Source: a virus
Reading direction: 5' to 3' (one strand)
Virus record (IMG/VR): IMGVR_UViG_3300025102_000098
Span: 1 to 38,008 of that record
DNA: 38,008 nucleotides
Shown in pieces: positions 3,001 through 20,391 of this stretch. Position 1 is the stretch's first letter; each line of letters begins with the position of its first letter. The notes under the pieces were generated by a model, which did no database searches, had not been told where the DNA came from, and saw only the letters and a list, made by a program, of their open reading frames with translations. A program made the position numbers and the translations under genes.

Positions 3001-5149
3001 GCAAAGTAATTGTTCGATCAGCACTTACTGTTGCCGCCTTGAGAGTTACTTCATTGTCATCTGCATTAGAGCCTTCAAAGACAACACCATTAGATGTCGA
3101 AACCGTTTCCACATGGTTTGTAGTTGTAGTTCCTGTAACTACAATTGAACCGGGAAATGTAGTAGTCGTGCTACCATCTCCAATTTGAAGTGCATTACCC
3201 CCTATTGCACTTCCCAATGCGGATTTTACGTTAGCAGTATCTGTTACATCGGCAGACGCTTCTACACCATCTAATTTTGATTTAAGAGCATCAGTAAAAT
3301 TGTTTTGAGTGAGTCCTCCATCTCCAACAGAATATTGAGTGTTGGTATCAGTAGAAGTAATGGTAACTGCCCCACCTGATTCACTTATTGATACGTTAGA
3401 CCCTGCTGTAAACGCTAAAGTCTCACTAGCACCTAATGTGTTGCCTCCTGCTGTTATTGTTCTGAAGGTGTTAGTGTCTGCTGTCATGTCATCTACAACA
3501 AAGTTAATTTTTCCGCTAGTATCATCGTAGGTAACTCCTATTCTTGTTTCCGTTCCACCATCAACCATGCCGCCAATTATATCTTGAACTGCTTCAGTAG
3601 ATAGTTGAGTATTGGTTGCTGCTAATGTAATTGTATCTGTTGAATGACTTACAGATATATTTGTTCCGGCTGCAATTTTTACGGTATCTGTTGTGCCGCT
3701 TGAATCGGTCAAAACAATATTTGCATCATCACTAGATACTGCGGTACTAATGCTGTAAGTGGTATTTGTATCGTTTGAAGAAGTATCTATTGAATCTTGT
3801 AAATTATCAAGAGTCATGTATTTCCATGCTGAACCCGATTCATCCCAAAGGAGTATTTTATCATCAGTAGCATCGGTTGATTCATTTAATTCAGAAAGAT
3901 TTGCAGGATCTGCAAGAGATAGCGTATCTCCTGTTAATACAATAGGGGCAGATACTGCAAGATTGGTATTAGAATTAATATCTATACTAGATAATGTAGC
4001 AAGAGAACCCAAACCAAGATTACTTCTTGCAGTTCCTACATTAGCAAGATCGGATAGATTGCTTGCCTTTGCAAGTTTAGTACCTATGCTTGTAGTAATA
4101 GTTGAAGAAAAGGATGCATCGTCATTTAATGCCGCAGCAAGTTCATTCAAAGTATTCAATGCACCCGGCGCAGAATCAATCAATGAAGTTACTTCAGAAT
4201 CAACATATGCCTTGATAGACTGTTGAGATGCTGCATGAGTTGCAGAGTCAGATGCCATGTTATCTTCATCTTTCAAATCTAAAGAAACACTAACTGTGCC
4301 GCTTGTTCCCCCCCCTGTAAGCCCACTTCCTGCTGTAACTCCTGTAATATCGCCCACCTGCGTTGTATAGCCGTAGGATTCAATTTTATCCGCAATCGCT
4401 GCTGATGTCATTAAAGACGTGTTGTTATCTGCAAAAGATTCACTACTCAACTGTATAGTATTTGCAGCAAATTCTGAAATGGTTAATCCTGCCACATTTA
4501 GTGTAACTGCGCCTGATGCACCACCCCCCGATAATCCTGTACCCGCAGTAACTCCTGTTATGTCTCCTGTAACTGCTGAAGTAACCCATGTAGTGCCATT
4601 ACCAATAATTGTATGACCGTCAGTAGGGGTAAGATTTGCTATTGCAGCCAAATCACCATCATAGGTTTGATATGTTGTAGAACCAACTACTGCCCCCGTT
4701 GCAGGATTGACAAATACATCATCAGATGTTGCCAATGATGCAAAAGTAACAACTTCACATTGTAATGTATATCTAAACAATTTCTTTGTTCTATCCGACA
4801 AATCTGTTCTTGTCTTGTATATTACTCTATCAAAATTAGTTCCATCCCCTTTACGGAACGCATAAAGTATTCTTCTTACCTCATCTCTTAATTCACTAAG
4901 TCTCTCTCTACTTTGTGCGGTTCTAACATCAATTGTAATATTGACGTGTTCGTTTACATAGTCATACAATAACTCAGGTTGTGCTTCATTATGTGCTGTT
5001 TCAAATATACGAATAATGTCGCCATCAAGCATTCTTACTCTTTTAGCATCTCCTTTATCTAAATCTGCAATATCTTCGATAGAAGGTGCAGGTGGCTTAG
5101 ACCAATTGGTTACTAGAATATTTCTAAGACCTATGATTGCATCAGCCAT
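1..5149 (-). CDS. Giant repetitive tail fibre protein (C-terminus beyond left edge)
   Basis: One uninterrupted frame runs from ATG at 5149 off the left edge, giving at least 1716 residues. The start has GAAAGGA upstream and overlaps the previous gene's stop by 8 bases. The N-terminal ~170 residues are non-repetitive, probably the attachment domain that docks to the tail or baseplate. After that come Ser/Thr/Asn/Gly-rich repeats of three kinds: units with QVQDIVGGM followed by TETRIGVTYDDTNGRINFVV; glycine-rich units such as GDITGVTAGTGLSGGG; and units with ASQQSIKAYVD followed by LNTLNELAAALNDDASF. These repeats are typical of long fibres in marine tailed phages. Role inferred: host recognition as a trimeric beta-rich fibre. 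The receptor-binding tip would be in the missing C-terminus. Plus-strand open frames across this region are shadows of the repeats. Confidence 0.9.
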   Translation of the reverse strand, partial: MADAIIGLRNILVTNWSKPPAPSIEDIADLDKGDAKRVRMLDGDIIRIFETAHNEAQPELLYDYVNEHVNITIDVRTAQSRERLSELRDEVRRILYAFRKGDGTNFDRVIYKTRTDLSDRTKKLFRYTLQCEVVTFASLATSDDVFVNPATGAVVGSTTYQTYDGDLAAIANLTPTDGHTIIGNGTTWVTSAVTGDITGVTAGTGLSGGGASGAVTLNVAGLTISEFAANTIQLSSESFADNNTSLMTSAAIADKIESYGYTTQVGDITGVTAGSGLTGGGTSGTVSVSLDLKDEDNMASDSATHAASQQSIKAYVDSEVTSLIDSAPGALNTLNELAAALNDDASFSSTITTSIGTKLAKASNLSDLANVGTARSNLGLGSLATLSSIDINSNTNLAVSAPIVLTGDTLSLADPANLSELNESTDATDDKILLWDESGSAWKYMTLDNLQDSIDTSSNDTNTTYSISTAVSSDDANIVLTDSSGTTDTVKIAAGTNISVSHSTDTITLAATNTQLSTEAVQDIIGGMVDGGTETRIGVTYDDTSGKINFVVDDMTADTNTFRTITAGGNTLGASETLAFTAGSNVSISESGGAVTITSTDTNTQYSVGDGGLTQNNFTDALKSKLDGVEASADVTDTANVKSALGSAIGGNALQIGDGSTTTTFPGSIVVTGTTTTNHVETVSTSNGVVFEGSNADDNEVTLKAATVSADRTITLPDLTGTVALTSQLTSDTNTQNVFTSSFVDSTNDILLRLTKSGASSGTQDIKFVAGTNVTLTHTDANNITIASTDTNTEYSVGDGGLTQNNFTNTLKSKLDGIAASANNYVHPNHSGEVTSTADGATVIASNVVDEDNLKVTNSPTDNHLLSYDSASGGFTWVAAGAGGENNQNAFSTVAVSGQDNVVADAATDTLTFAAGSNVTITTTAGSDTVTFASADTNTQLTQEQVEDFVNGLIVGGTNVTATYDDAAGTLTLSSTDTNTQLSTEAVQDIVGAMLVGTETRIGVTYDDTNGRINFVVDDMTANDNTFRTITAGGNTLGASETLAFTAGSNVTITESGGEVTIASTDTNTNTQLSTEQVQDIVGGMLVGTETRIGVTYDDTNGRINFVVDDMTANTQLTLLDEDNFASNSATAAASQQSIKAYVDAEVSGLVDSAPNTLNTLNELAAALGDDASFATTISTSLGEKLVKASNLSDLPNAGTARSNLGLGTASTLAGDGAVANGNAGLVTGDVVFDYIAAQGFGTGGGDITAVVAGTGLSGGATSGSATVNLNHLGIQSLSDPGADRLLIWDDSAGAIVFATPNDNLAISGTNVNATDTNTDTQLTTEQVQDIVGGMLVGTETRIGVSYDDTNGRINFVVDDMTANDNTFRTITAGGNTLGSTETLAFTAGSNITITESGGAVTIASADTNTQLTTEQVQDIVGGMLVGTETRIGVTYDDTNGRINFVVDDMTANDNTFRTITAGGNTLGSTETLAFTAGSNVTITELNGAVTIASTDTNTNTQLSTEQVQDIVGGMFSSNTETRVAATYDDTNGKINVVVDDMTANDNTFRTVTAGGNTLGSSETLAFTAGSNVTISESGGAVTIASTDTNTTYSVGDGGLTQNNFTNALKSKLDGIAASANNYAISSDLLDEDNMASNSATKVASQQSIKAYVDAEVATNASSISTNASAITAITNGAPSLLNTLDELAAALGDDANFATTTATSLSEKLVKTSNL
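598..3625 (-). repeat. Tail-fibre QVQDIVGGM repeat units
   Basis: Seven copies of the segment encoding (E/A)QVQDIVGGM or a variant lie with the motif DNA at about 621, 894, 1161, 1911, 2184, 2307 and 3582. Neighbouring copies are spaced 273, 267 and 273 bases (91, 89 and 91 codons); one short interval is 123 bases. Most are followed by TYDDTNG(R/K)INFVVDDMTAND and a segment ending in FTAGSNVTI. Copies near 600-1200 are the most alike at DNA level, suggesting recent duplication. The 2307 copy (QVEDFVNGL) is the most diverged. Confidence 0.85.
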
Positions 5150-5408
5150 TTCCTTTCACCGCCTTCTTATGATTGTCTTGGGCGGTAATCATGTTTCTAT
5201 ACAAAGGCCCACCCATTATGATTTTATCTACAATCATAGAAATTTCATCATTAGTATATTCTAAGCCATCGGCTTCAGCCATTTCTCTTTCTTTGACTTC
5301 TAAAAGTTGTTTCATAGAAGGGTAAGATGTAAGAAATGCATCTATTGCCTGTTGAAATTGCTTAAGAGCAGCAAGTTCTTTCTTAACATATTCAACTTCT
5401 GACGCAAT
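5142..5408 (-). CDS. Small charged helical protein, unknown
   Basis: An 88-residue frame sits between the connector gene (stop at 5411) and the fibre, whose ATG it overlaps by 8 bases. It reads as a charged, mostly helical protein: an N-terminal stretch with EVEYVKKELAALKQFQQAID, then Glu-rich helices and a Lys/His-rich end. I see no ATG, GTG or TTG in frame after the preceding stop region; the most upstream plausible start is ATT at 5408. The first in-frame ATG would discard about 30 well-formed residues. Position suggests a small neck or fibre-assembly protein, possibly a chaperone, but nothing in the sequence proves this. The start is uncertain. Confidence 0.55.
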   Translation of the reverse strand: MASEVEYVKKELAALKQFQQAIDAFLTSYPSMKQLLEVKEREMAEADGLEYTNDEISMIVDKIIMGGPLYRNMITAQDNHKKAVKGNG

Positions 5409-5410
5409 GA

Positions 5411-7003
5411 TTAACCACCCATACCTGCTACTATGATGCCCTCTTGATATGGGATTAATATTCTTTTGACCTCTTCTTCTAATTTTTGTATTTTTGAGTT
5501 CAAATCAATACCCGCCGCACCTTCGGGGAACATAGCCGTATAATCATCTGTTAGCATAATATCAACAGCAACTAATTTCGTACAAGCCTCTTCTATTGCT
5601 TTATCTAGGTATCTTTCTCCGTATATGTAAGAAATCTTTAGGCTGTGATTTTCAAAGAAAGGATATTGGTTATTGAATAAAATTGCCCCGTTATCTTCCA
5701 TAGACCACCAATCCTTTTGTCTTTGTTCTTCGGTAGCATCACAATCAAACGTAGTTTGAGATATTGTCAAACCATTAGTTAGATTTGCTTGGAATGATGA
5801 TGTAAGATCATCTGCTATTGTTATTGAATTGCCATCTCTTGTGCATCTAGCAACTCTTATTGTAGCACCTGTTCCATAATAATACAAACCATTTCCTTGC
5901 ACAAACCCTGATGCATCACTTAAAACAAAAGTGCTACCTGTTGATGTAACTGTTGATGATACAGTATTAGCCAATGAATATGTAAAACAACTACTATTCG
6001 TAACTGCAATAGTCGAAGAATTCCCTTCATCTAACGATCTTGTGCTGCTAATTAAAATTTTACCATCTCCTTCATCACTATTAGCGGTAGCAAGATATTC
6101 ATGGGTTAAATTAAGTGCAGAACCATTTTCAGTCATAGTTCCTATTTGTATTGCAGCCTTAGATGATTGAGCATCTTGGTTAATTAAATTAGCAATTTCA
6201 CCTGCTACTGTTTTTGAGCCAAAGTCCTTTGCCCATGTGCTTGTTGTGCTTCCACTTGTCAAAGTAGCAGTATGAGCAATATTTGGACATAAGAAGATTT
6301 TATCTGTACCATTAAATAAATGAGTATCTTGAACATTCAATTTTAATTTAGATGACGCTAATTCTCTATATTCATCTCCTTGCCATACCCCTAATCTAAT
6401 AATTCTTTGAATCGGTCTGTTTCTTACATAAACAGCACCTACATAGTCAGTATAGTATCTACGGCGATATGGTTTGAATGTAGTAAAGTTTTGATATTCA
6501 TCTACTATTAATCTAGGTCGCCAAGCCATTCTGCATATCCTGTCAATGTAATCTTGCTTATTTTTAATTAATGTCTCAACTTGTGATTTACTTATTCCTC
6601 TTTGTGAACTGTTAGATAATACTGATGTAGGTTGAACATAAGCACTATTTGCTGTTGTGTAAGCAGTACCTTGATCTGTTGCTTTAAGGTTAATTACTCC
6701 CGATGCACCGCCTGATACAATACCTGTTAGCGTGTATGATTTGCCTAATGCGTCTGCGTCATCATATACTGTAACTACATCTCCCGTTGCGAATCCCCAT
6801 CTTCTGTAATCTTCTCCTGATATTGGTATTTTGATTACTGTAACCCCTCCTTCTGAACCTGTGCTTGTATTTGCAGCCAATGCAGTAGGTCTTGGGGCAG
6901 GTAATTGTAAGAATGACTCAACTTTTGCTACTGTTGAATATACTAATTCATCAGGATAAAGGGGTTGGTCGGGTCTATGCCCCGGTGAAAATACTCTTGG
7001 CAT
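5411..7003 (-). CDS. Probable head-tail connector/adaptor with inserted beta domain
   Basis: A 530-residue protein. The N-terminal quarter carries a small beta-rich segment (EDYRRWGFATGDVVTVYDD). From about 130 to 220 there is helix and basic strand sequence (SQVETLIKNKQDYIDRICRMA, then FKPYRRRYYTDYVGAVYVRN). A Ser/Thr-rich insertion of about 200 residues follows, and a C-terminal helical section (AIEEACTKLVAVDIML ... KIQKLEEEVKRILIPYQ). The split helical core with 'DYIDRIC' and 'KLVAVDIMLTDDY' resembles gp6-like head-tail connectors (HK97/SPP1 gp15 type), which form a ring under the portal, but at 530 residues it is far longer than those (~100-150). Function is inferred from this resemblance and from its place between capsid genes and fibre. 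It could instead be a neck or minor tail protein. Confidence 0.5.
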   Translation of the reverse strand: MPRVFSPGHRPDQPLYPDELVYSTVAKVESFLQLPAPRPTALAANTSTGSEGGVTVIKIPISGEDYRRWGFATGDVVTVYDDADALGKSYTLTGIVSGGASGVINLKATDQGTAYTTANSAYVQPTSVLSNSSQRGISKSQVETLIKNKQDYIDRICRMAWRPRLIVDEYQNFTTFKPYRRRYYTDYVGAVYVRNRPIQRIIRLGVWQGDEYRELASSKLKLNVQDTHLFNGTDKIFLCPNIAHTATLTSGSTTSTWAKDFGSKTVAGEIANLINQDAQSSKAAIQIGTMTENGSALNLTHEYLATANSDEGDGKILISSTRSLDEGNSSTIAVTNSSCFTYSLANTVSSTVTSTGSTFVLSDASGFVQGNGLYYYGTGATIRVARCTRDGNSITIADDLTSSFQANLTNGLTISQTTFDCDATEEQRQKDWWSMEDNGAILFNNQYPFFENHSLKISYIYGERYLDKAIEEACTKLVAVDIMLTDDYTAMFPEGAAGIDLNSKIQKLEEEVKRILIPYQEGIIVAGMGG

Positions 7004-7015
7004 TTGTCATCCCCC

Positions 7016-7321
7016 TTAACTCCCTAAGTTGTAATCCATTACTGCATTGCATCCTGCACACCGAGGTGTCCAACAAAAATGTAGAAGGCTGCACTTGGTA
7101 CATCTAGTACCCGAACCTATGTTTTGAATATCAAACCTTTCTCTCTTTGATAGTTTTACTCTTACATCTGCTGCTTGTGCAAGATTACGAGAACTGAACG
7201 GAGATTCGGATTCTGCTATTGCCCCATCATCAGAAACAATTTCAGCCATGCGTACCTTACGGCGGCGTTCTATTTCGTGTGCTTCTTCAAAGCAAATGTC
7301 GCCTAATTCTAATGAGGGCAT
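7016..7321 (-). CDS. Small zinc-ribbon protein in head-neck cluster
   Basis: A 101-residue protein whose ATG follows a GGGGG ribosome site. The N-terminal 60 residues are charged and helical (EEAHEIERRRKVRMAEIVSDD). The C-terminus holds CTKC and CAGC pairs separated by 14 residues, a classic treble-clef or zinc-ribbon arrangement (Cys near 75, 78, 88 and 91). It lies immediately upstream of the probable connector. Zinc binding is well supported by the spacing; a role in head completion is only inferred from position. Confidence 0.65.
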   Translation of the reverse strand: MPSLELGDICFEEAHEIERRRKVRMAEIVSDDGAIAESESPFSSRNLAQAADVRVKLSKRERFDIQNIGSGTRCTKCSLLHFCWTPRCAGCNAVMDYNLGS

Positions 7322-7335
7322 TTACAAGCCCCCGA

Positions 7336-7650
7336 TTAGGCTCGGCCACCTGTTACGGTGATGTATATTTCTTGCCCTGAAAGGTCGGTGGAGTCTGCTA
7401 CTGCATCGAGAGAAGCACCGTCTGCCCCTGCTTCGTAAGCAAGGATTTTCTTTGCTGATCTATCGTATGCCCAAACATACCCTCCAATATCAGATTCAAT
7501 GTGGACTGTTTCAATATTAGAAACATAAGCAGTAAGGTCTAATGATTCCCCTGCTGCTAACCATGAGGAGTCAGGTGTTACTTTCAAAGCAACAGTTAGT
7601 CTGTTGCCTGTTACATTTGTTCTGCCAAGTTGCGCTACTGTGAGTGCCAT
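7336..7650 (-). CDS. Small beta-rich structural protein, unknown
   Basis: A 104-residue protein starting at ATG 7650 (MALTVAQLG). An in-frame TTG nine bases upstream has no better ribosome site. Alternating hydrophobic and polar residues and many Gly/Ser/Thr indicate a beta sandwich. It ends in YITVTGGRA, a strand-like C-terminus. A TATA-like box (GTTATATAG) lies about 25-33 bases upstream of the ATG, so this may begin a transcript. Position between capsid genes and connector fits a head-decoration, tail-terminator or neck protein. No family is recognised. Confidence 0.6.
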   Translation of the reverse strand: MALTVAQLGRTNVTGNRLTVALKVTPDSSWLAAGESLDLTAYVSNIETVHIESDIGGYVWAYDRSAKKILAYEAGADGASLDAVADSTDLSGQEIYITVTGGRA

Positions 7651-7674
7651 ACAAACCAATCCTTATTTGCAATC

Positions 7675-7683
7675 CTATATAAC
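7675..7683 (-). promoter_or_regulatory. TATA-like box upstream of the 7650 start
   Basis: On the minus strand the sequence is GTTATATAG, preceded by a run of nine A residues. It is centred about 29 bases upstream of ATG 7650. An archaeal TATA box sits about 26 bases before the transcription start, so this would give a near-leaderless mRNA. The gap it occupies (7651-7698) is one of few spaces between genes here. Confidence 0.35.
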
Positions 7684-7698
7684 AACTGTTTTTTTTTC

Positions 7699-8229
7699 TT
7701 ACTCGTGAATTACAAGAACTCTTGCAGTAGTTCCGTTAGTAAACACACCATTTGTAGTCTCTAATTTGAATGTTACAGCACCACATACGAGTCCACTCCA
7801 CGGTGCAGGTTCATCAATTGTTTTTCCGCCGGTAGTAATGCTTGCAGGTGCGCTTACAGTAAAGTGAAGTCCACTTGTAGCCCCACCATCTGCATTCATG
7901 TTACCGCCTTCGGATGTTTGGAAATTATATGCGCCTGTTACAGCAGTTCTAACATCAAAGTTTGCAATTTCATCACAATAAGTGTAGTTCAAAGGTGTTC
8001 CTGCTGAATCTGTCAGATCCATCAATATATTGAATTTTCCTGTTGTTGCTGCATTTGCATTACAAGTAAGCCTACTAACATCAAGAACAACCCTGCCTAC
8101 TTTTCCATTCATTTGAATGGTTTCAGTAATCGTGTTTGTTCCGTCTGCTGTGAGAGTAATCATTTTTCGATTTACTCTAACTCTACTTGCATAGCGACCT
8201 ATGCCATCGTCAATGTCAAAATCAGCCAT
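7699..8229 (-). CDS. Beta-rich virion protein, unknown
   Basis: A 176-residue protein starting MADFDIDDGIGRYASRVRV. After a short basic N-terminus it is rich in Thr, Gly, Asn and alternating hydrophobics, with strands such as MITLTADGT, GRVVLDVSRL and AVTFKLETTNG. There is no signal peptide or membrane segment. Its start abuts the stop of the previous gene. Composition and location fit a decoration, head-fibre or tail-tube-like protein. The family is not recognisable by eye. Confidence 0.65.
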   Translation of the reverse strand: MADFDIDDGIGRYASRVRVNRKMITLTADGTNTITETIQMNGKVGRVVLDVSRLTCNANAATTGKFNILMDLTDSAGTPLNYTYCDEIANFDVRTAVTGAYNFQTSEGGNMNADGGATSGLHFTVSAPASITTGGKTIDEPAPWSGLVCGAVTFKLETTNGVFTNGTTARVLVIHE

Positions 8230-8708
8230 CAGTTAGACCCCGCAACATATTGGCGGGCTAAATCAGTCATAGATGCTTTTGTTGATGTGTTAGCAGTTTT
8301 AATATCCCTTGCTGAACACCATGCCATCATTTGCGCTCTTGTCAAAGAAGAAGAAAATCCTTCTGCTTCAAGTAGAGCCTCAACGTCTAACATAGTTACT
8401 GCTTCAGGAGTAGTAATTACTTCTTCTTCAACAACCTCTTCTACAACAGGTGTTTCTACAACAGGTGCTTCTACTACTTCAGGCTCTAATGCTTCAAGCA
8501 TTTTCTTCTGAGTCTTTGTAGTTTTAGCATCTGCCCCTTCAACAACCCATGATTTAGAACCATTTGCTATCATAGGCATGATCTTAGTTGTGATAAAAGT
8601 TTCATCAATATCATCTCTTACCATGCCTCTTGAAAACCCAATAGTAAGCCCATTTATTCTGAACTCAGTATAGGGTCGTGCGCCTACATATCGTAGAGAT
8701 AGTGCCAT
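8229..8708 (-). CDS. Head-neck protein with acidic linker and C-terminal HeH/LEM-like helical motif
   Basis: A 159-residue protein with three parts. Residues 1-65 form a compact domain (RYVGARPYTEFRINGLTIGF ... SKSWVVEG). Residues ~75-105 are a Pro/Val/Glu linker with repeated VVE and VET units. Residues ~115-159 contain LTRAQMMAWCSARDIKTANT and KASMTDLARQY, resembling the HeH/LEM/SAP-type helix-extended-loop-helix found at the ends of phage structural proteins. Such motifs can bind DNA or other proteins. The ATG follows GGTGAG. The two-domain plan with a flexible tether suggests a connector or decoration role; this is inference. Confidence 0.6.
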   Translation of the reverse strand: MALSLRYVGARPYTEFRINGLTIGFSRGMVRDDIDETFITTKIMPMIANGSKSWVVEGADAKTTKTQKKMLEALEPEVVEAPVVETPVVEEVVEEEVITTPEAVTMLDVEALLEAEGFSSSLTRAQMMAWCSARDIKTANTSTKASMTDLARQYVAGSN

Positions 8709-9117: not shown

Positions 9118-10281
9118 TTAAGCAGCGATATCCCTCACTTTTCCATGCGCTCGGTAGAATAGTTGCCATAGTTCACCCATAGTGTGAAACATACCCATTT
9201 GCCCTAGTCTGTTGATTCCGAAAGGATCTCCGGTTTCAATACCTGACTCGTGGTATAGGGTTGGTTTTGCTGTGCAGAAATACATATAATCTGTATCCAT
9301 GAAATACATTCTTGAAAGTTCGCCTGATTCTGCGAAAACGTCTTTGGATGGGATTAGTGGTACACCGTTGTATGTTGCAACTACGAAACCTGCTTCCATA
9401 CCCGGAACACCCTTTACACCGTTTACACCCGGTACAACTCTCTTCATTTCAGTAAATCTTTGCTGTGGTTGTAAGAGTTGTTGGATTTTCTCTAATGTAT
9501 CGTATCCTGTAAGGATAACTTTAGGCTGTCCTCCTTTCTCCCATACGCTTCTGAACATTCCATCTAAGATGTTTAGAGACAATGCTCTTGCTGCACCTGC
9601 TGAACCTGCATCCACATTAGCATCGTACCATTGTGCAGACCCTGCCCCTGCACCATTACGGGTAATGCTGTATTGGTTGTGGTCTGTAATTGCAGATACG
9701 AAATCTGTTGCAGATTCTGTAAAGGAAGATGATAAAGCACGATCTAGGCTTTGGAAATTGTTTCCTGCTAGTGTATCTACATCTTCTAATAGCATTTTAT
9801 TGATGTGTTCAGCGTGGTGTTTTGCCATTTCCATCTTCATAACTGCTCTTGCATCTCCAAGACCGTCATCTTTGTCTGCTAGGAACATTGCTGTTTCTGA
9901 TAGGTCGAAAGTGTGCGCTACTGTTCTTGGTTTTGTGCTGACTTCCTCAAATACAGGCTTGCTTGTGTCAGGTAGTGTTCCGTTTTCTGCAACACCGCCA
10001 CCGCTTGTGAATGATGGTTTGTCAGTAACGACCCTCCAACCACTCTTTTCCCACGGTTTCTTAGGTAGTATAGAGAACGCATTGAACTCTTGGTTCAGTT
10101 GCGACCAAACTTTACGGCCAAATATAGCCTGATAAGTTCCGGTTGTGCTGCTCACTAAAGGCGAGTCAGCCTTCAAAAGGTCTGTACCGGAGTATGCCCA
10201 TGCGTTAGCACCTGCACCTGCCCCGTAGTATAGCCTTTCCATATCTTCAATTGTGCGTAAGTATCCTCGTGATCCACTCAT
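9118..10281 (-). CDS. Major capsid protein (HK97 fold, predicted)
   Basis: A 387-residue protein starting MSGSRGYLRTIEDMERLYYG. The start is ATG 10281 because a perfect GGAGG sits just upstream; an in-frame TTG five codons earlier would lie across that site. It lies immediately downstream of the prohead protease, the canonical place for an HK97-type major capsid gene. Features consistent with the fold are an N-terminal segment with VWSQLNQEFNAFSILPKKPW, a long central helix region (AVMKMEMAKHHAEHINKMLLEDVDTL) shortened here, and a C-terminal beta region with PLIPSKDVF. Length is typical. There is no separate delta-domain-sized N-terminal extension, in keeping with scaffolding being supplied by the protease gene's tail. 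The assignment rests on position, size, expression signal and general sequence character. Confidence 0.85.
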   Translation of the reverse strand: MSGSRGYLRTIEDMERLYYGAGAGANAWAYSGTDLLKADSPLVSSTTGTYQAIFGRKVWSQLNQEFNAFSILPKKPWEKSGWRVVTDKPSFTSGGGVAENGTLPDTSKPVFEEVSTKPRTVAHTFDLSETAMFLADKDDGLGDARAVMKMEMAKHHAEHINKMLLEDVDTLAGNNFQSLDRALSSSFTESATDFVSAITDHNQYSITRNGAGAGSAQWYDANVDAGSAGAARALSLNILDGMFRSVWEKGGQPKVILTGYDTLEKIQQLLQPQQRFTEMKRVVPGVNGVKGVPGMEAGFVVATYNGVPLIPSKDVFAESGELSRMYFMDTDYMYFCTAKPTLYHESGIETGDPFGINRLGQMGMFHTMGELWQLFYRAHGKVRDIAA

Positions 10282-10317
10282 ATTTTTTTCCTCCAATTAT
10301 CCGTACCCGAAAAACGC

Positions 10318-11697
10318 TTATGCGCCTCTCAAAGCCCTCCTTGCTAGATCTTCAGTAGCAATCCAAGCATCAAGGTCATTGCCCATAGCGGCAAATTCTT
10401 CGTGGGTTGGAATGCGAATATCTGAAACATCAGATTTCTGTATAGATGCTGTCTCGACAGCAGTTGAACGTAGTGAATCAATTTCTGCTTTTAGTGTAGC
10501 AATTTGACCGCTATAATCAGATGCTTTCTGAACTTCTAATGCTCTAGCAGTTTCTGCGTCATAACGTGATTCCCAATCTGACTTAACAAGAGATTTCAAT
10601 GCTTCTTCATCTCTTAGAGATGCGTATGCCCTGTATCCACGCTCTAATCCTTCAGATGTAATTTCATTCTTAATGATGTTTTTACTGCCGGATGGTGCGT
10701 TGTATGCCATGTTTGCAACTCCCGGTTGCTTGATGACGTATTTGTTTCCACTTGGCCCTTCAAGAGATGGGGCAGGTGCAAGTGTTGCATCTTCTCCTGA
10801 ACCGATTGGGTCGCCCTGTCCTCGGTGTGAATATCCGCCGCTACCTTCTTGTAAGTATGCTTTCTCTAATCCGAAGTGGCCTCTTAGACCATCTAAATCT
10901 ACTCCTTGTTCGTGAGCAAACTTCTCAAGAGTGTCAATGTATGCTACTGCACCATCATTACTCTTTTTGGCTTCATCTTTGGATTTCATATCTTTATCCT
11001 CTTTGTCGCCTTTGTATCCCATTTTTTCATCGGATTTTTCTTCGGTCTTTGTTATCGAGTCTGTGTCAAGATGTTTTAATATCCCTGTCAGACTTTCTCT
11101 TATCTCTACTAATGCTTCGCTTTCAGTCATTTTATTTACTTCCTGTATATTTTCATTATCCATTTTGAGGATTGTGTAACGGGCTTCGGGATTAATCCCT
11201 TTCTTGCACAAAGTTATCTCGTGCAATTCCAAGTCCGTAATCTCACGGTGGTTTCCATGTTCAGGTGTATGCTTAGATACACGGAACAATGCTTGTCCAC
11301 CTATTGAAAAGGCACGAAGATCACCATCTCGTACCTGCTTTTGCACTTCTCGTGCTTTCTGAATATCGCTGCGTATTTTACATACTACGAATAATCCGTG
11401 GTTATCTACCTCAGATTTCCATAAGCGACCTTGTGAATCTGTATAGTTATCAACTACTTCTCCTACTTGGATTCCGCTATGTGCTAACTGAACATTACGA
11501 AATGCTTTGTTATCCATGAACTTACTAAATGCCTTAGTTAGAGCAGAAGTTGGTATTCTATCTCCTTGTTTATCTACCATATCTACACTAGCATATCCTG
11601 CTACAAATAGATCTTCTCCTTTAGATTCTTTTAGAATCCATCTATCTGACGTTTCACCGACAGCAGACCATCCCTGACTCATGCTTGCCGTTGCCAT
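10318..11697 (-). CDS. Prohead maturation protease with C-terminal scaffold-like region
   Basis: A 459-residue protein. Residues ~15-170 match the HK97-type (U35) prohead serine protease plan: VAGYASVDMVDKQGDRI strand region, His in QLAHSGIQVG (~71), Ser in LRAFSIGGQ (~130) and the acidic strand LELHEITLC (~158). These would cleave scaffold and capsid propeptides during head maturation. Residues ~190-459 are charged and coiled-coil-like (EEKSDEKMGYKGDKEDKDMK, later ALEVQKASDYSGQIATLKAEI shortened), as expected of a fused scaffold. The ATG has no convincing ribosome site, but a TATA-like box lies about 24-33 bases upstream. It directly precedes the major capsid gene. Confidence 0.85.
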   Translation of the reverse strand: MATASMSQGWSAVGETSDRWILKESKGEDLFVAGYASVDMVDKQGDRIPTSALTKAFSKFMDNKAFRNVQLAHSGIQVGEVVDNYTDSQGRLWKSEVDNHGLFVVCKIRSDIQKAREVQKQVRDGDLRAFSIGGQALFRVSKHTPEHGNHREITDLELHEITLCKKGINPEARYTILKMDNENIQEVNKMTESEALVEIRESLTGILKHLDTDSITKTEEKSDEKMGYKGDKEDKDMKSKDEAKKSNDGAVAYIDTLEKFAHEQGVDLDGLRGHFGLEKAYLQEGSGGYSHRGQGDPIGSGEDATLAPAPSLEGPSGNKYVIKQPGVANMAYNAPSGSKNIIKNEITSEGLERGYRAYASLRDEEALKSLVKSDWESRYDAETARALEVQKASDYSGQIATLKAEIDSLRSTAVETASIQKSDVSDIRIPTHEEFAAMGNDLDAWIATEDLARRALRGA

Positions 11698-11756: not shown

Positions 11757-14700
11757 TCATAGGACATGATCATCACGAGTGGCTTGCACTACATCGTTTT
11801 CATCTTCATCATGAGTTTTTTCTTTACCGGGATAACGAAGTATTGCTTTTCCCTCTTTCATATCTAAAACAGCCTCTCCGTCATCTGTTGTTACTCTCAT
11901 AGATAATGGCTTAAACATATCATCCATAGTCTCTTCACTTTCTTCCCTTTTTGGATTGCCAAAAGTGGTGTTTTCTTCGTCAGTAATTTCCGTTGGCCCT
12001 GTCGGTGCAGTAAGATCTGCTTGCATTCCCGACCATGCGCCACCATCTGCTGAAGCCCTATTCATTCTAGGAAATGCAAATTTTTCTGCTACATCGTCAT
12101 CAATAGCCTCATTTACAGTCCATTCTCCACTTTCTGTTCTTTCAAGCCCGTATTCATTACCGTACAATTCTAACTTCTTAGATGTCAAACCATCAATAAT
12201 CCCAATCAATCTTTTCTCTTTCATTGATTCATCGGCATTTGCAATAGCCCTTCTTGCATAGCGCATAATAGTTGAAATAGAACCTTTTTCTTCTTCTTCA
12301 GTCATAACTTCAGGGGCTTTATCCATTGATTTTCTTTTTAGAGGGCGTTTTCGAGCAGAATGCAATGGTCGTAATGTTCCGCTATCTGATGACGTAACTG
12401 TTCCCGTATTTGCTGTTGCACCACCTGCCGCACCACCTGCCGCACCTTCTTTGAGGAAAATACCTGCAACAGGACTCCAAATCACAAATTGTGCCTTTGC
12501 TTGTTTAATTAAATGAGATGGCCCTTCGTAATCAACTACAAAGAACCCTTCATCATCCATATCTGTTTTTACAATTACAGGCTCAAATATTGCAGGATAT
12601 TCTAAGACAACTTGATTGCCCTTCAAACTCATTTCAGGCAAAGGAGGCAAAGGAGATGCTTTCGATATATCGTCTTGAGGATAAAGAACCCACTTCGGAT
12701 GGACTTCTTTGCCTTTGATAAAAGTCGAATGTGCATCTCTAATTAGTAAATCACTTTTATCTAATGTAGCAATTGTTTTCATTAATCCATCTTCATCAGT
12801 AGTAACACATGAATTAGGAGATGGGAAATGAACATTGTCTGTTGTTGTATATAGTGTCCTTAATGTATTTACTCGATCACTTAATGGCTCAACTGCCATG
12901 TCTGTATCTTTATGTACCAACAAATCTACAACAGTAAGCAAATCGCCATCAACATAAGCATCAAATGTTGCATCACCCTTGATTGTATCTTTTAGAGACT
13001 TCTTTACTTTAGTGGGCAAACTTGTAGGGTCTATGCTTTTGCCCTTTTTCTTAACCATAATTCTTTTTCCTTTTGGTTTCTTTTGAACTACCCATTCTCC
13101 GCTAAAGCCTTTGAGTGTTTCCATATCATCTAAATCTCTTATGACGTGAGCAGGTTCAATTAATGATTCAAACACGCCTGTTTGTTCATAATCATCAGAT
13201 TTATGTAAATCAGTAGTTAGAGACATACTCCCTGTTGGATGTGCGGATAAAGCATTTATTTCTCTTGTCTTAGGTGTAATAGGGTGCATATGATGATTCA
13301 TGTTTAATCCATTAACTAATCCTTCATGTGCTGTTCTTTGTAATAGATTGAATGGTTGTTCTTTTACATCAAATGATATATCGTTAATACGAGGATCCCA
13401 TTTCCATGCTAGGTTAGCACTCATGTTATGCCCCCATGCATCTGTATTTCCTGAATTAAAGATAGGGGGGGCTACTCTTTTTGAGGATGGATGCACGTTT
13501 CCGAACACGCCCTCTCCGTGTTTTCCTCTCATTAATGCCATGTTAGCAGCCGCAGCCAATTGTTGAATGTTGCCTCTTGCAATAGTATTAGCATTCATAT
13601 CTTCAGTTGTTGTAGGAGAAAACAATGCATTACCATGCTTTTCTCTAAGCCCCTTTGCCATTTCCATCATTTTCATCCTAAGTGCAATATCAGTCTCATT
13701 ATAATGTGCATTGTGCAAATCATGCCACATAGGATTAGAGTTAGGGTGGTTTTCCCTAAACATACCCCCTCTTGCTACTCCTAAATCAGTAACTCCTTGC
13801 ATCGCTCTACCGAATGGGCTAATTGAAAACGCATTTGTTGGTATTGTCATTCTTGCACCTTGACCCCCTATTTGTGAGGGATGAAGATGTTGATGATTTG
13901 CTGCATGACTCCAACTTGCCCTTCTTCTTTCAAAATCAACATCTCCTATTGAAGTAGGGGTATGCATATGTGAATTATCGGGTGAATCTCGTGCCAATTC
14001 AGGGAAATGACTACCACTAAGCATTGCAGGTGAATCTATCTCCACCCCGTTTGTTAAGAAATCAGATAACCAACCTTCATTGAATATATCAGGATATGAT
14101 TGTTTTAAGATAGTGTCAAGAGATTTTGAGTCTCGCCCCACACCGCCCCAACGCTGAAACGGTTGCCACCAATGATGGTTATGCGATTCTTCATCATCAA
14201 TGAATGGATGAATTAAGTGAGATGTGGGGTCTGAAACCATAGGTGATGATGTAGGGCCATGTCTATCGCTTGGCCTCATCCACCATGCTTTCAAAGGAGT
14301 AAATCTATCTCGCCAAGATCGTAATACTCTATCCCATGTCATACCTGCTTTGTTTTGCATATTGTTTCTAATGCTTTTTGATTCGGGAGAAGAATAACTA
14401 TCTGTTTTTGAAAGGTCTTTTAACAAATCTATCATTGATTCATTCTTGTCATTATTACTCCATTCTAAACCAAATAGATAAGGTAACATACCAAATTTAG
14501 ATAGTTGTTCTTTTTTATTCTCTTGCCATTCTTCATAATTGGAATGTCTATTTACGTCTTTTATGTATAAATCTAATATAGATTCATCGGGATTGCCATA
14601 AATCATAGCCTCATCGGGAGATAAACGATTATTGCGTTCTCCTTCTTTGTGCTTATGAGCCAAAGTTAATCTTTCTGATTTTTCAATATTTTCTTCATCG

Positions 14701-15113
14701 CCTAAATGAGTAATAAAATCGAATAAATGATCAACATACAATGGTTCACCCCATGCAGCCCCATGAAGTAATGGGCATGAATTTGACTTCATACCAAATG
14801 GATGATGTTCTCCAAAACGATTATCCTGTTCAGCCATAGGCCAATCATTTAGATATGTAGTTGATAATTTAGTATGCCCTGCTAAGTATTTTTGATATTC
14901 TTGAGGAATTACCATTTGAGATGGAGACATAGGAGAACCTAAGTCTCTCATAGAATATGGTGGACTATCTGCCATCATAGCCAAAGCAGCCATGTCTTGT
15001 TTAGTTATTTCAGAATCTTTCAATACAGATAAGTATTCATCGAAAGGCGGATTTTGTGCATTAACACAAGAAAGAACAACTTCTGTTCTCAATCGTACTA
15101 ATTCATCATTCAT
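11757..15113 (-). CDS. 1118-residue minor head protein candidate with DNA-ligase-like domain
   Basis: Start taken at ATG 15113 (MNDELVRLRTEVV) because GAGGTGG lies at good spacing; the open frame continues 12 codons upstream into the previous gene. Residues 1-650 are His/Asn/Met-rich, polar and low in recognisable motifs. Residues ~670-870 resemble the nucleotidyltransferase core of ATP-dependent DNA ligases: WVVQKKPKGKRIMV (motif I position, KxDG changed to KPKG), FDAYVDGDLLTVVDLLV (FDGEL position), SDRVNTLRTLY, and HPKWVLYP near the motif V/VI region. The C-terminus has Glu-rich helices and APTGPTEITDEENTTF, a motif shared with the gene at 26074-27408. Size and position between portal and protease suggest a virion protein. 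Whether the ligase fold is active is doubtful given the altered motif I. Confidence 0.6.
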   Translation of the reverse strand: MNDELVRLRTEVVLSCVNAQNPPFDEYLSVLKDSEITKQDMAALAMMADSPPYSMRDLGSPMSPSQMVIPQEYQKYLAGHTKLSTTYLNDWPMAEQDNRFGEHHPFGMKSNSCPLLHGAAWGEPLYVDHLFDFITHLGDEENIEKSERLTLAHKHKEGERNNRLSPDEAMIYGNPDESILDLYIKDVNRHSNYEEWQENKKEQLSKFGMLPYLFGLEWSNNDKNESMIDLLKDLSKTDSYSSPESKSIRNNMQNKAGMTWDRVLRSWRDRFTPLKAWWMRPSDRHGPTSSPMVSDPTSHLIHPFIDDEESHNHHWWQPFQRWGGVGRDSKSLDTILKQSYPDIFNEGWLSDFLTNGVEIDSPAMLSGSHFPELARDSPDNSHMHTPTSIGDVDFERRRASWSHAANHQHLHPSQIGGQGARMTIPTNAFSISPFGRAMQGVTDLGVARGGMFRENHPNSNPMWHDLHNAHYNETDIALRMKMMEMAKGLREKHGNALFSPTTTEDMNANTIARGNIQQLAAAANMALMRGKHGEGVFGNVHPSSKRVAPPIFNSGNTDAWGHNMSANLAWKWDPRINDISFDVKEQPFNLLQRTAHEGLVNGLNMNHHMHPITPKTREINALSAHPTGSMSLTTDLHKSDDYEQTGVFESLIEPAHVIRDLDDMETLKGFSGEWVVQKKPKGKRIMVKKKGKSIDPTSLPTKVKKSLKDTIKGDATFDAYVDGDLLTVVDLLVHKDTDMAVEPLSDRVNTLRTLYTTTDNVHFPSPNSCVTTDEDGLMKTIATLDKSDLLIRDAHSTFIKGKEVHPKWVLYPQDDISKASPLPPLPEMSLKGNQVVLEYPAIFEPVIVKTDMDDEGFFVVDYEGPSHLIKQAKAQFVIWSPVAGIFLKEGAAGGAAGGATANTGTVTSSDSGTLRPLHSARKRPLKRKSMDKAPEVMTEEEEKGSISTIMRYARRAIANADESMKEKRLIGIIDGLTSKKLELYGNEYGLERTESGEWTVNEAIDDDVAEKFAFPRMNRASADGGAWSGMQADLTAPTGPTEITDEENTTFGNPKREESEETMDDMFKPLSMRVTTDDGEAVLDMKEGKAILRYPGKEKTHDEDENDVVQATRDDHVL

Positions 15114-15123
15114 TTTTCCCACC

Positions 15124-15651
15124 TCACAGGCGGGCATAGACTTGCTCAATCAAACCCGCAATTTCATCAATTGCACCCAACTGACCTTGCGTTGCGTTCT
15201 TTTTCAAATCCATAAGTGAATCTTCAATTGGTTTTACACTTGAGAAATGTCCACCTGAATGAGTAAGATGCATATGTAGTGAAGATGCATTGACATCATA
15301 ACCTGTTTGTGCTACACTAGGCATTTTTGCAACTTCTGAAATGAATGTTCTTTTTGTTCCTTCTTCAGTATATGGCATTACTTGATTAGTACCAAATCCT
15401 GCTGCTCTATTTGATTCACCTGATACTTCATGGAAATGAGGCATACCATTACTTACATTAGGTTCAACTTGATATTTCTTAATGTCTTTTTCTTTCTTAG
15501 GATTACAAGTAGGGCAATCATCTTCTTTACACCCCATTTTACAACCCATACGATTGACGTTCTTTTCAATACCTAATTCTTTTTCAATAGATTTTAGTAC
15601 GCTTAGTAATCTTCCTTCAGGGGTTTCTTTCATTGGGTCAAAATATTTCAT
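15124..15651 (-). CDS. Cys-rich small head-cluster protein, unknown
   Basis: A 175-residue protein with GGAGG eight bases before ATG 15651. Residues ~34-50 hold five cysteines in CKMGCKEDDCPTC, a likely metal site. The middle is His/Ser/Asn-rich (MPHFHEVSGESNRAAGFGT), with a second His cluster in LHMHLTHSGGHF. The C-terminal 40 residues are helical (QLGAIDEIAGLIEQVYARL). It overlaps the preceding gene's stop. No family is recognised; a minor virion component is plausible from position. Confidence 0.65.
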   Translation of the reverse strand: MKYFDPMKETPEGRLLSVLKSIEKELGIEKNVNRMGCKMGCKEDDCPTCNPKKEKDIKKYQVEPNVSNGMPHFHEVSGESNRAAGFGTNQVMPYTEEGTKRTFISEVAKMPSVAQTGYDVNASSLHMHLTHSGGHFSSVKPIEDSLMDLKKNATQGQLGAIDEIAGLIEQVYARL

Positions 15652-17341: not shown

Positions 17342-17637
17342 ATATCATCCATCCATTCATTATAACAATCAGGACATACCATATCCCAATACCTTACTTT
17401 GCCTGTGTTTTGTTCACACAAAGGGCATTGAAGATGCTGATTATTTAATTGTTCTTTCGCAGAAATTGAATCAATAATCCAATCGGCTTCTTCGGGGTCA
17501 AAATTAGGGTTATCCCAATTGGCTTCATGACATTGAGAGCAAGCCAATGCAACATAACGAACTACACCCTTTGATCCGCAATCAGAACAATTAGAATCCG
17601 CTTTTGCAATATCCCAAGCCTTCTCAAATGCGGTCAT
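17338..17637 (-). CDS. Tagged double zinc-ribbon protein (MTAFEKAWDIAK)
   Basis: A 99-residue protein: the shared tag at residues 1-12, then two zinc-ribbon units. The first has CSDC and CSQC (about residues 17-36), the second CPLC and CPDC (about 71-92), separated by an acidic helical linker (PEEADWIIDSISAKEQLNNQ). It starts four bases inside the end of the portal gene, with GAGGATGAG as ribosome site. Zinc ribbons of this kind bind nucleic acid or protein. This shows the tag joined to a compact folded cargo. Confidence 0.75.
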   Translation of the reverse strand: MTAFEKAWDIAKADSNCSDCGSKGVVRYVALACSQCHEANWDNPNFDPEEADWIIDSISAKEQLNNQHLQCPLCEQNTGKVRYWDMVCPDCYNEWMDDI

Positions 17638-19151
17638 TCTAACTCATCCTCCTCAGATTTTTGAACAGGTGGTGCTACGGGTGGTGCGCCCCCGCCGCCT
17701 TGTGCTGCCGCAGCCTCTTGCTGTTTTGCTTGGATTTCTTCGGCAGACGGCTCTCTAAAGTCAAAGTTCAGATACTTATCATCAATCTGATCTCTTAACA
17801 TAGCCTCATATCCTGCTTGCTTCATCTGCATCATGTTACGGATAGCCATCTCATCTCGGCGCAGTTGCATGATTTCATCTTCTTCTTCATGTGGTGATAG
17901 AGTTAATGTCCATTCTGTAATACTAAATGCTTCCATGATTGCAGGGAACACAATACGGTTATACACGGATTGAGCATATGATATTGCCCTATTACTTACA
18001 ACAATCTGCATACCCTCATTATTCAAACCACCGCCCGATACATCATTCATGAATACATTTGATACACCATAGTATGCAGATATACGCTGTCTAATATCAT
18101 CTTTGATTGGTATGTATTGTAACTCTTCAAGCGTGTCCATCATACGAACATACTCTATTCCACCTCTACCTGATTCTGTTTCAACACCTATGGTCGGCAC
18201 ATAGTTAGGATCACGTTCAAGATGTTCTTGGATATTTCTTGCTGTTCTTTCGACAGTTTCCATGTTTGATGACTTGATAACCATGATACCTCTAGGCATT
18301 CTTCTCTTTTGGTATGCTGAATAAACATAGTTATCCATAGCAATCAATGTATTGACTTGTCTCCACATAGTAGCAACAGGACTTCGACCATACAGTTTCG
18401 ATGGCGACCATTTGCTAATGTGTATCACTTCACCCTCAGTATATACTTGCCCGTTTCCAACACCTGCAAGATTCATGTAATGAATTGGCACAACAGGCAT
18501 ACCCGATACAGGGCATTTGCCTTTGGGGTCGCTTGTTCTAAATGAACGGTCAATAAGGCTAGTATATTGTGTGCCTCCTCTAATTCCTCTTTTATCTGAA
18601 AGAATACGCATGAATATAGGGTCAGCCCTTGATACTTCACGAACACGGAAAAATTGAGGTTGCTTAGTCTCAGGATCAACAAAGTATTCTTTTGTAAGAA
18701 TTATGTAGGCATCATCTACTATATTCAAATCCATTTCTACTTCACGAAGAACATCTACAAAGTTTTGAGTCATTCTATTGCCGCCTTTCAAGATTGCATC
18801 TGCATATTCGATTTGGCCTCTATCCGGTTTTCGCACTTCTCCGCCACATGATTTACATTCTTGCAGTTGTTGTTGATACTCTTCCCCGCATTCTTTGCAC
18901 TTGCAAACAAACTTAGCATCCCAATCCCAACCTTTTCTGAATGTTTCAACAGAAAGATGTTGTAAAATAGAACGTAAGACCATACATTCGTAAGCCGCAG
19001 CATACAATGCAGGTATAGTAATTCCTTGTAATAATGCAGGTTCTTGAATACCTTGTGTAAATAATGGCATGGATGGAATAGGTGTGTTATACCTCTCCAT
19101 ATCTACTCCAATAGCAGAAAACAATCTCTCCATTTTTTTGTCATCAACCAT
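17634..19151 (-). CDS. Portal protein with inserted zinc ribbon
   Basis: A 505-residue protein two genes downstream of the large terminase, of portal length. Portal-type features include the N-terminal wing (residues 30-75), a central QVYTEGEVIHISKWSP segment followed by LYGRSPVATMWRQVNTLIAM, a PIKDDIRQRISAYYGV stem region with NVFMNDVSGGGLNNEGMQ, and a helical crown from ~440 (IMQLRRDEMAIRNMMQMKQ). It forms the dodecameric DNA channel and terminase dock. Residues 83-102 hold five cysteines (CKCKEC ... CKSCGG), a zinc ribbon inserted in the wing, unusual for portals generally. The C-terminus is a disordered Gln/Ala/Pro/Gly tail ending in acidic residues. Confidence 0.88.
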   Translation of the reverse strand: MVDDKKMERLFSAIGVDMERYNTPIPSMPLFTQGIQEPALLQGITIPALYAAAYECMVLRSILQHLSVETFRKGWDWDAKFVCKCKECGEEYQQQLQECKSCGGEVRKPDRGQIEYADAILKGGNRMTQNFVDVLREVEMDLNIVDDAYIILTKEYFVDPETKQPQFFRVREVSRADPIFMRILSDKRGIRGGTQYTSLIDRSFRTSDPKGKCPVSGMPVVPIHYMNLAGVGNGQVYTEGEVIHISKWSPSKLYGRSPVATMWRQVNTLIAMDNYVYSAYQKRRMPRGIMVIKSSNMETVERTARNIQEHLERDPNYVPTIGVETESGRGGIEYVRMMDTLEELQYIPIKDDIRQRISAYYGVSNVFMNDVSGGGLNNEGMQIVVSNRAISYAQSVYNRIVFPAIMEAFSITEWTLTLSPHEEEDEIMQLRRDEMAIRNMMQMKQAGYEAMLRDQIDDKYLNFDFREPSAEEIQAKQQEAAAAQGGGGAPPVAPPVQKSEEDELE

Positions 19152-20391
19152 TTATCATCACCGCCTCTCTTTTCCTTGTCATCTCTTCGTCATCAATTCT
19201 TTGAGATTTTAGTAATTGTATTTGTTCTGCTTGGCTCATATTTTCATATGCTAAAACCAAAAGAGCATCTTCATCGCCCCTTAGACCTTTCAACATTTTT
19301 CTTGCGTCAGGTGAGTGTCCATTAAGATATGGTTCTGCTAATTCTAAGGCTTTCTTTACTGCTGATTCTCCGTTTATAACAATCTTATTTGAATTAGACG
19401 TGATATTAGTAGTGTCTAATTCTTTGCATAGTGCGTCTGCATACCACGGTGCAGTAGGCGCATGAAAACCTAATTCAATTCTAGGGTTAAGTCTAGTATC
19501 CATCTTGAATTTTGAATTGTTTTCAATCAAACCTGCAATAAACCGATCTGCATCTTTAATCAATACATCTCTTCTTTTTATGTCATAGAATAAACCTCTA
19601 CCTACTGATTTACTAAATTGCCCTACTGATATTAAATCGAATAAGAAACCATGCGATTTTATCAACGAAGAGATTTCAGCCGGACTTGCTTGAATTCCAT
19701 ATGATTTCAATGTTTGAGCATTCAATGCACCACGAGCATATATTACTTCTCGACATTTTGTTAGTAGATTCCTTTCACGATTAGATAGGCGTTCTGATTT
19801 GTCTATTGTTGTAGTCCATAACAATGCGGCTTTTTCCTTCCCTTGTTCATCTGATGATGTCCATGTTTTTACGAACCTTCTAAATGGCAAATCAAGCCTA
19901 TCTGAATGTTTATTCAAAGCATCATAATCAAAATCAGTAAGAGGCAACTCATCTACAAGATTAGGAGATACGCCTTTGAAATGACTAATTATTGCTTGCT
20001 TCTCCATTTTTAGTAACCCTTGTATGCTATCTAATGTCCTCAAATCTTTTGCTTTGATTAATATCTCACTTAATTCTCTACCTGTCATACCAAAGTTATC
20101 AGTAAACCATGTTTTGCTTATTGGAGGAGGTGCAGTAGCCGGTAATACTGTACCGGGTTGTTCAGTAGGTGCAGAACTGCCTTCTTTGTCTGTACCTTCA
20201 ATACCTGCATTGGCTCTTGCATCTACGGCATTTCTTTGAGCATCTTCTTGCTTTTTCTTCTCTTGTGCCGCAGTTAATGCTTGTTGAGCCATGTCTATTT
20301 CTTGTTGTGCAAGATTATTTTCTGCAAACTTAATTATAGAATCAGACAAAGATTCTACACCATTTATGGGTTCAAGATATTCCTTACGCAT
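19144..20391 (-). CDS. 415-residue protein between terminase and portal, unknown
   Basis: It overlaps the large terminase by 8 bases and the portal by 8 bases, so expression is coupled to both. Residues 1-60 form a Gln/Ala/Glu-rich coiled coil (QQEIDMAQQALTAAQEKKK), followed by a Pro/Thr/Ala linker to ~95 and a folded domain rich in Lys and Leu (WFTDNFGMTGRELSEILIKA; RRFVKTWTSSDEQGKEKAAL shortened). The C-terminus is helical with basic residues. No catalytic motif is visible. The place suggests a packaging accessory or portal partner. Confidence 0.7.
   Translation of the reverse strand: MRKEYLEPINGVESLSDSIIKFAENNLAQQEIDMAQQALTAAQEKKKQEDAQRNAVDARANAGIEGTDKEGSSAPTEQPGTVLPATAPPPISKTWFTDNFGMTGRELSEILIKAKDLRTLDSIQGLLKMEKQAIISHFKGVSPNLVDELPLTDFDYDALNKHSDRLDLPFRRFVKTWTSSDEQGKEKAALLWTTTIDKSERLSNRERNLLTKCREVIYARGALNAQTLKSYGIQASPAEISSLIKSHGFLFDLISVGQFSKSVGRGLFYDIKRRDVLIKDADRFIAGLIENNSKFKMDTRLNPRIELGFHAPTAPWYADALCKELDTTNITSNSNKIVINGESAVKKALELAEPYLNGHSPDARKMLKGLRGDEDALLVLAYENMSQAEQIQLLKSQRIDDEEMTRKREAVMING

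Follow-up and report, generated by a model that had tools for sequence, protein, structure and literature searches.

The window analysed here is the whole 38,008-base virus record. On its minus strand, a large gene sits between the portal-proximal genes and the genes for the prohead protease and the major capsid protein. The terminase, the portal protein (17634..19151 (-)), the S78-family prohead protease (10318..11697 (-)) and the HVTV-1/SU10-like major capsid protein (MCP; 9118..10296 (-)) are all encoded on the strand of the large gene, and a gene for a 175-aa protein (15124..15651 (-)) is always located directly upstream of it. In each of the 20 loci compared, the order of 175-aa gene, large gene, protease and MCP was kept over the part that the locus covers. 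The large protein shares with the packaged MuF and polyvalent proteins that it is encoded within the head cluster of a portal–terminase virus. Elsewhere in the window, a 415-aa protein is encoded between terminase and portal (19144-20391), in an order conserved in relatives, and gave no match in PHROGs, Pfam or NCBIfam. At 36850-37980, a Dam-family adenine methyltransferase-like protein was noticed (NCBIfam E 1e-12, below the NCBIfam cut-off; PHROG DNA methyltransferase).

Poseidoniales, the hosts of magroviruses, are very common marine archaea, and their viruses are abundant in the ocean. A relative with 65% identity in the domain discussed below was found on the 106-kb contig CACGHY010000002.1 of the single-cell genome Ca. 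Poseidoniales AG-422-I20. This contig bears the same head cluster as the window and therefore links these viruses to a Poseidoniales host. By capsid protein, the nearest named relatives in the phage records are of the HVTV-1 kind. These observations fit a magrovirus-like archaeal tailed virus, magroviruses being tailed viruses that infect Marine Group II archaea (PMC10160649, PMC10768690, PMC12999244).

Layout of the large protein

The minus-strand open reading frame (ORF) spans 11757-15149 and comprises 1,130 codons, opening at a TTG at 15149. The likely start is the ATG at 15113, residue 13 of the 1,130-aa ORF, because the starts of homologues cluster at the aligned methionine and a GAGGTG lies immediately upstream. 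The gene of the large head-cluster protein would then cover 11757..15113 (-) and encode 1,118 aa; residue numbering follows the 1,130-aa ORF throughout. No homologues were found among 50,697 phage records, nor did the full protein yield a sequence match in Pfam, PHROG or the PDB.

The structure of the N-terminal region (residues 13-629, 13263..15113 (-)) was predicted confidently with AlphaFold2 (AF2). The model of residues 14-650 (pLDDT 87.6, pTM 0.88) consists mainly of helices, apart from one long beta hairpin, and gave no significant Foldseek match against PDB or BFVD. A new fold is not proven thereby, because a model of 637 residues can hide single-domain matches. HU-like beta-arm matches reached an E of about 5 and were not significant, and ligase DNA-binding domains were absent among the matches listed. 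As Foldseek gives no relative, a head function cannot be read from this region. With Pfam and PHROG, no MuF domain (PF04233) was matched in the window protein or in 51 N-terminal relatives, although a remote version could escape these searches. PHROG 4938 matched two members over 28 residues only, which is likely due to chance. The conserved His/Trp-rich motifs of the region (window 13200-15110) resemble SHxHHWWxPFQxWGGVGRD and NHHHLHPSE and could bind metal.

The N-terminal region is followed by the ligase-like adenylation-fold domain (residues ~660-835, 12645..13172 (-)) and by a segment of four strands and two helices in the AF2 model (residues 836-905, 12435..12644 (-)). This segment occupies the place of the OB domain of a ligase and might be a reduced OB domain; no motif VI was recognised in it by eye, and a few structural alignments reach into it. 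A variable linker rich in Gly/Ala and basic residues (906-955, 12285..12434 (-)) leads to the C-terminal region (956-1130, 11760..12284 (-)), which contains a conserved block (GEYGLERT..WTVNEAIDDD..GGAWSGMQAD..APRGPTEL).

Fold and active-site positions of the ligase-like domain

An earlier note on this DNA had proposed a DNA-ligase-like domain inside the large protein, and had suggested a profile–profile search and a structure prediction to examine it. The peptides on which the proposal was built are present in the ORF (VVDLLVHK from residue 740, SDRVNTLRTLY from 757 and HPKWVLYP at 817-824), and both approaches bore it out. Residues 630-908 were modelled with AlphaFold2 from an alignment of 32 sequences, resulting in a mean pLDDT of 79 and values of 80-95 over most of the domain. 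Among the best 50 Foldseek matches against the PDB, 49 were DNA ligases or ligase complexes with archaeal ligases leading (top match 4eq5, E 1.4e-8), the only non-ligase being a chain of a vaccinia RNA polymerase complex at rank 48. The best rows of VIA-align reached Z scores of 15-17.6 over ~164-171 residues at roughly 2.5-3.1 Å (model residues about 25-204), including Z 17.1 over 168 residues at 2.5 Å for the P. furiosus ligase. By both programs, the model has the nucleotidyltransferase (adenylation) fold of ATP-dependent DNA ligases. As to a closer kinship to mRNA capping guanylyltransferases or RNA ligases than to DNA ligases, nearly all fold matches listed were DNA ligases, although a family outside the listing may match as well.

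On the sequence level, Pfam DNA_ligase_A_M (PF01068) matched 20 of 32 family members (best E 8.7e-4); the matches are weak and colinear, and their score, at most about 16 bits among the matches listed, lies below the cut-off of 26.2. When whole virus contigs were searched with PF01068, the large ORF was picked in 7 of 20 records and no other ORF was. Solely ligase models of NCBIfam matched the domain, in three relatives and up to E 2e-5, again weakly and colinearly. In hhalign, the domain family scored 42.5 (E 1e-4) against 25 archaeal ligases, while the reversed ligase alignment scored 28.6 and 30 column-shuffled controls at most 25.4, which places the likeness above all controls and beyond chance. 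A PDB profile search using the domain gave no match; the fold emerged solely from the Pfam and NCBIfam searches with the domain alone and from the AF2 model. Since the model matches are joined by sequence support from PF01068, NCBIfam and hhalign, we regard the predicted adenylation fold of an ATP-dependent DNA ligase for residues ~660-835 as firmly assigned.

The closest solved folds are the adenylation domains of ATP-dependent ligases (PF01068; the archaeal 4eq5 and 2cfm, human LIG1/LIG3/LIG4). The window domain shares with them the fold over ~165-170 residues, the motif order and the fold-shaping residues FD, PLxxR, SxF/Y (SxF in this family) and W. Unlike these ligases, it has a much shorter stretch between motifs III and IIIa, lacks the catalytic residues of motifs I, III, IV and V, is embedded in a 1,120-aa protein and stays below the Pfam cut-off.

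The motif equivalents were read off the ligase alignment and counted in 51 representatives with less than 90% identity. Motif I corresponds to KPKGKR (residues 691-696, 13062..13079 (-)), with KxDG falling on 691-694. The position of the catalytic lysine, Lys691, is K in 32 representatives, M in 16, R in 2 and V in 1, with at least six changes among these residues on the tree. The earlier supposition that this lysine may remain is correct for the window and for the 32 representatives, but not for the other 19. The motif I Asp, already noted as lost, is absent from 51 of 51 and is replaced by Lys693 in the window. In the motif III equivalent FDAY (729-732, 12954..12965 (-)), Asp730 is retained, and the Glu is found in 0 of 51, with Tyr, Val or Phe instead. 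The motif IIIa equivalent VVDLLVHKDTDM (740-751, 12897..12932 (-)) holds the invariant D742, H746 and D750 and is followed by PLSDR (755-759, 12873..12887 (-)), which corresponds to the PLxxR helix of ligases. LLIRDAHSTF (801-810, 12720..12749 (-)) takes the place of motif IV, with motif IV proper aligned to 799-804; its Glu is kept in only 4 representatives, and its Lys has become an invariant Arg804. In the motif V equivalent HPKWVLYP (817-824, 12678..12701 (-); aligned to 820-824), the Trp is retained, while the first lysine occurs in 1 of 51, the second in none, and the window has neither. SDRVNTLRTLY, which had earlier been taken as IV-like, belongs to the PLxxR helix after IIIa, and the motif IV equivalent at 801-810 had been missed.

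Besides D742, H746 and D750, the residues Q689, P692, G694, D730, D758, R759, R804, D805, S808, F810, K812, H817 and W820 are invariant in all 51 representatives. The domain shows the pattern of a pseudoenzyme, since the chemistry is lost while the scaffold is retained. It is an evolutionary relative of the adenylation domain of functional DNA ligases; because the residues that define ATP-dependent ligases (motif I KxDG, III Glu, IV Glu and Lys, V lysines) were tested and are absent, it is not a functional member of that group and, judged by its motifs, not a working ligase. The Lys691 of 32 representatives leaves room for some covalent chemistry, which may persist in part of the family.

Selection and ligases in related viruses

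The dN/dS of the domain was ~0.02-0.08 in close pairs with measurable dS, and in most of the pairs with measurable dS it was below that of the N- and C-terminal regions. One copy of the large gene was present on each of ten magrovirus contigs of 86-108 kb. Such strong preservation of a ligase fold that has lost the parts for joining DNA suggests that it now serves a purpose other than catalysis.

The ten contigs, the completeness of which is not established, gave no ORF in which a canonical motif I of ATP ligases stands in ligase context. The KxDGxR pattern used recovered 25 of 25 archaeal ligases as a control. The scan, in which ORFs were split at 20-kb joins, could miss ligases that are NAD-dependent or very divergent. 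A PF09414 search found no RNA ligase in the same contigs. ON649702 and OR863078 are published reference genomes that bear a ligase. ICTV profiles ascribe an ATP-dependent DNA ligase to magroviruses (PMC10768690, PMC12999244), and according to a survey almost all magroviruses encode a DNA ligase (PMC10160649). The ten large relatives of the window virus, in contrast, show the inactive domain and no canonical ligase. In other clades, the ligase of the literature may have a gene of its own; this is a point of annotation to be checked, and no contradiction is shown.

Probable role of the domain

The computation shows the ligase fold and its lost active site, purifying selection, a conserved single copy and a constant gene order. 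Because of the gene position, a head-associated protein is the most likely reading, and its presence in virions is plausible on the same ground. We infer a location in the virion, a function in the head and a ligand for the domain, and consider it likely that the ligase-derived, catalytically dead domain serves as a non-catalytic binding module and not as a nick sealer. On this reading, the adenylation domain of an ATP-dependent ligase has lost its catalytic residues and lies midway in a ~1,120-residue protein, which as a whole would be portal-proximal or internal to the capsid. Binding is the most likely activity of a domain without its chemistry, and the partner that it would hold is either a second protein of the head or DNA close to the portal. 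Its charge is near neutral (26 K/R, 28 D/E), therefore simple DNA binding is not favoured, and both DNA and protein are candidate partners. More tentatively, an ancestral magrovirus might have acquired a ligase that became part of a portal-proximal head protein, the fold of which is otherwise unmatched, and that persisted without catalysis as a clamp on the packaged DNA end or the portal vertex; we regard this scenario as possible, but not probable.

Of the two options raised earlier, the repurposed nucleotidyltransferase fold is the better one, and the fold as such is strongly supported by Foldseek and VIA-align. The other, an active divergent ligase or nucleotidyltransferase that would travel in the virion and, e.g., seal nicks of the ejected DNA, would be useful, as the ten large contigs show no other recognisable ligase, and Lys691 is retained in the window and in 32 of 51 representatives. 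However, motif I Asp and III Glu are absent from all 51, the V lysines from 50 and 51, and the IV Glu from 47, Lys691 itself is replaced in 19, and an OB domain with motif VI was not recognised, which makes this option very unlikely. Nucleotide binding could also have been kept without transfer, so that the domain would sense or regulate assembly or packaging. The invariant Q689, P692, G694, D730 and R804 at the positions of motifs I, III and IV speak for such a role. In ligases, the motif III Glu binds the ribose and a motif IIIa position stacks on the adenine. In this family, however, the former is replaced by Tyr, Val or Phe and the latter is mostly Val or Ile, and we consider a sensor improbable.

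A real rival to the head-associated binding module is an early effector of the sort proposed for MuF-fused and polyvalent proteins of phages. The protein would travel inside the head and leave it together with the DNA, and once in the cell the dead domain would bind a nucleic acid or protein of host or virus. In the capsid relative HVTV-1, a similarly placed gene encodes a protein of 1,313 aa that carries zeta-toxin and ADP-ribosyltransferase domains. MuF and polyvalent proteins that are packaged, and an inactive nuclease domain in Mu gp30, have been described as well (PMC5512222). Yet no sequence relation to the HVTV-1 protein was detected, and the domains do not vary between family members, whereas polyvalent proteins swap their effector domains; the ejected effector thus appears rather unlikely, if less so than the sensor.

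The HVTV-1 protein in question, gp115 (4458-8399 of its locus; zeta-toxin E 3e-20, ADP-ribosyltransferase E 1e-8), resembles the large protein of the window in being very large, encoded upstream of prohead protease and MCP and carrying embedded enzyme-like domains, but these are of the kinase and ADP-ribosyltransferase type instead of the ligase fold. The gene before gp115 gave a weak MuF match. A comparison of the large protein with vir519_00020 to 00023, 00028 and 00030 to 00032, proteins of a Methanofastidiosa virus, gave no sign of kinship.

The DNA ligase fold is chiefly familiar from enzymes. A ligase-fold pseudoenzyme in virions or in a viral head cluster was not found described in the searchable literature, outside of which most subscription journals lie. 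Dead enzyme domains in phage structural proteins are a known kind, and as far as found the ligase fold has not been seen in that role. In phage Mu, MuF (gp30) carries an inactive, nuclease-like PBECR domain proposed to bind RNA (PMC5512222). The window protein is comparable in that a catalytically dead enzyme domain with a predicted binding role is part of a head protein, here a probable one, and differs in fold and protein, no MuF domain having been found in it. Catalytically inactive DNA ligase IV can act structurally in end joining (PMC9638927, PMC10858965), but this is a cellular ligase of DNA repair, inactive through engineering or mutation. A dead ligase fold under strong selection in a head-cluster protein would be a clear case of the reuse of an enzyme fold in virus architecture. 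The Snurportin-1 m3G-cap-binding domain (PF21974) gave a weak, non-significant match in 3 of 32 members; it is a non-catalytic relative of the ligase/capping fold, and Snurportin-1 is a eukaryotic RNA-cap import adaptor.
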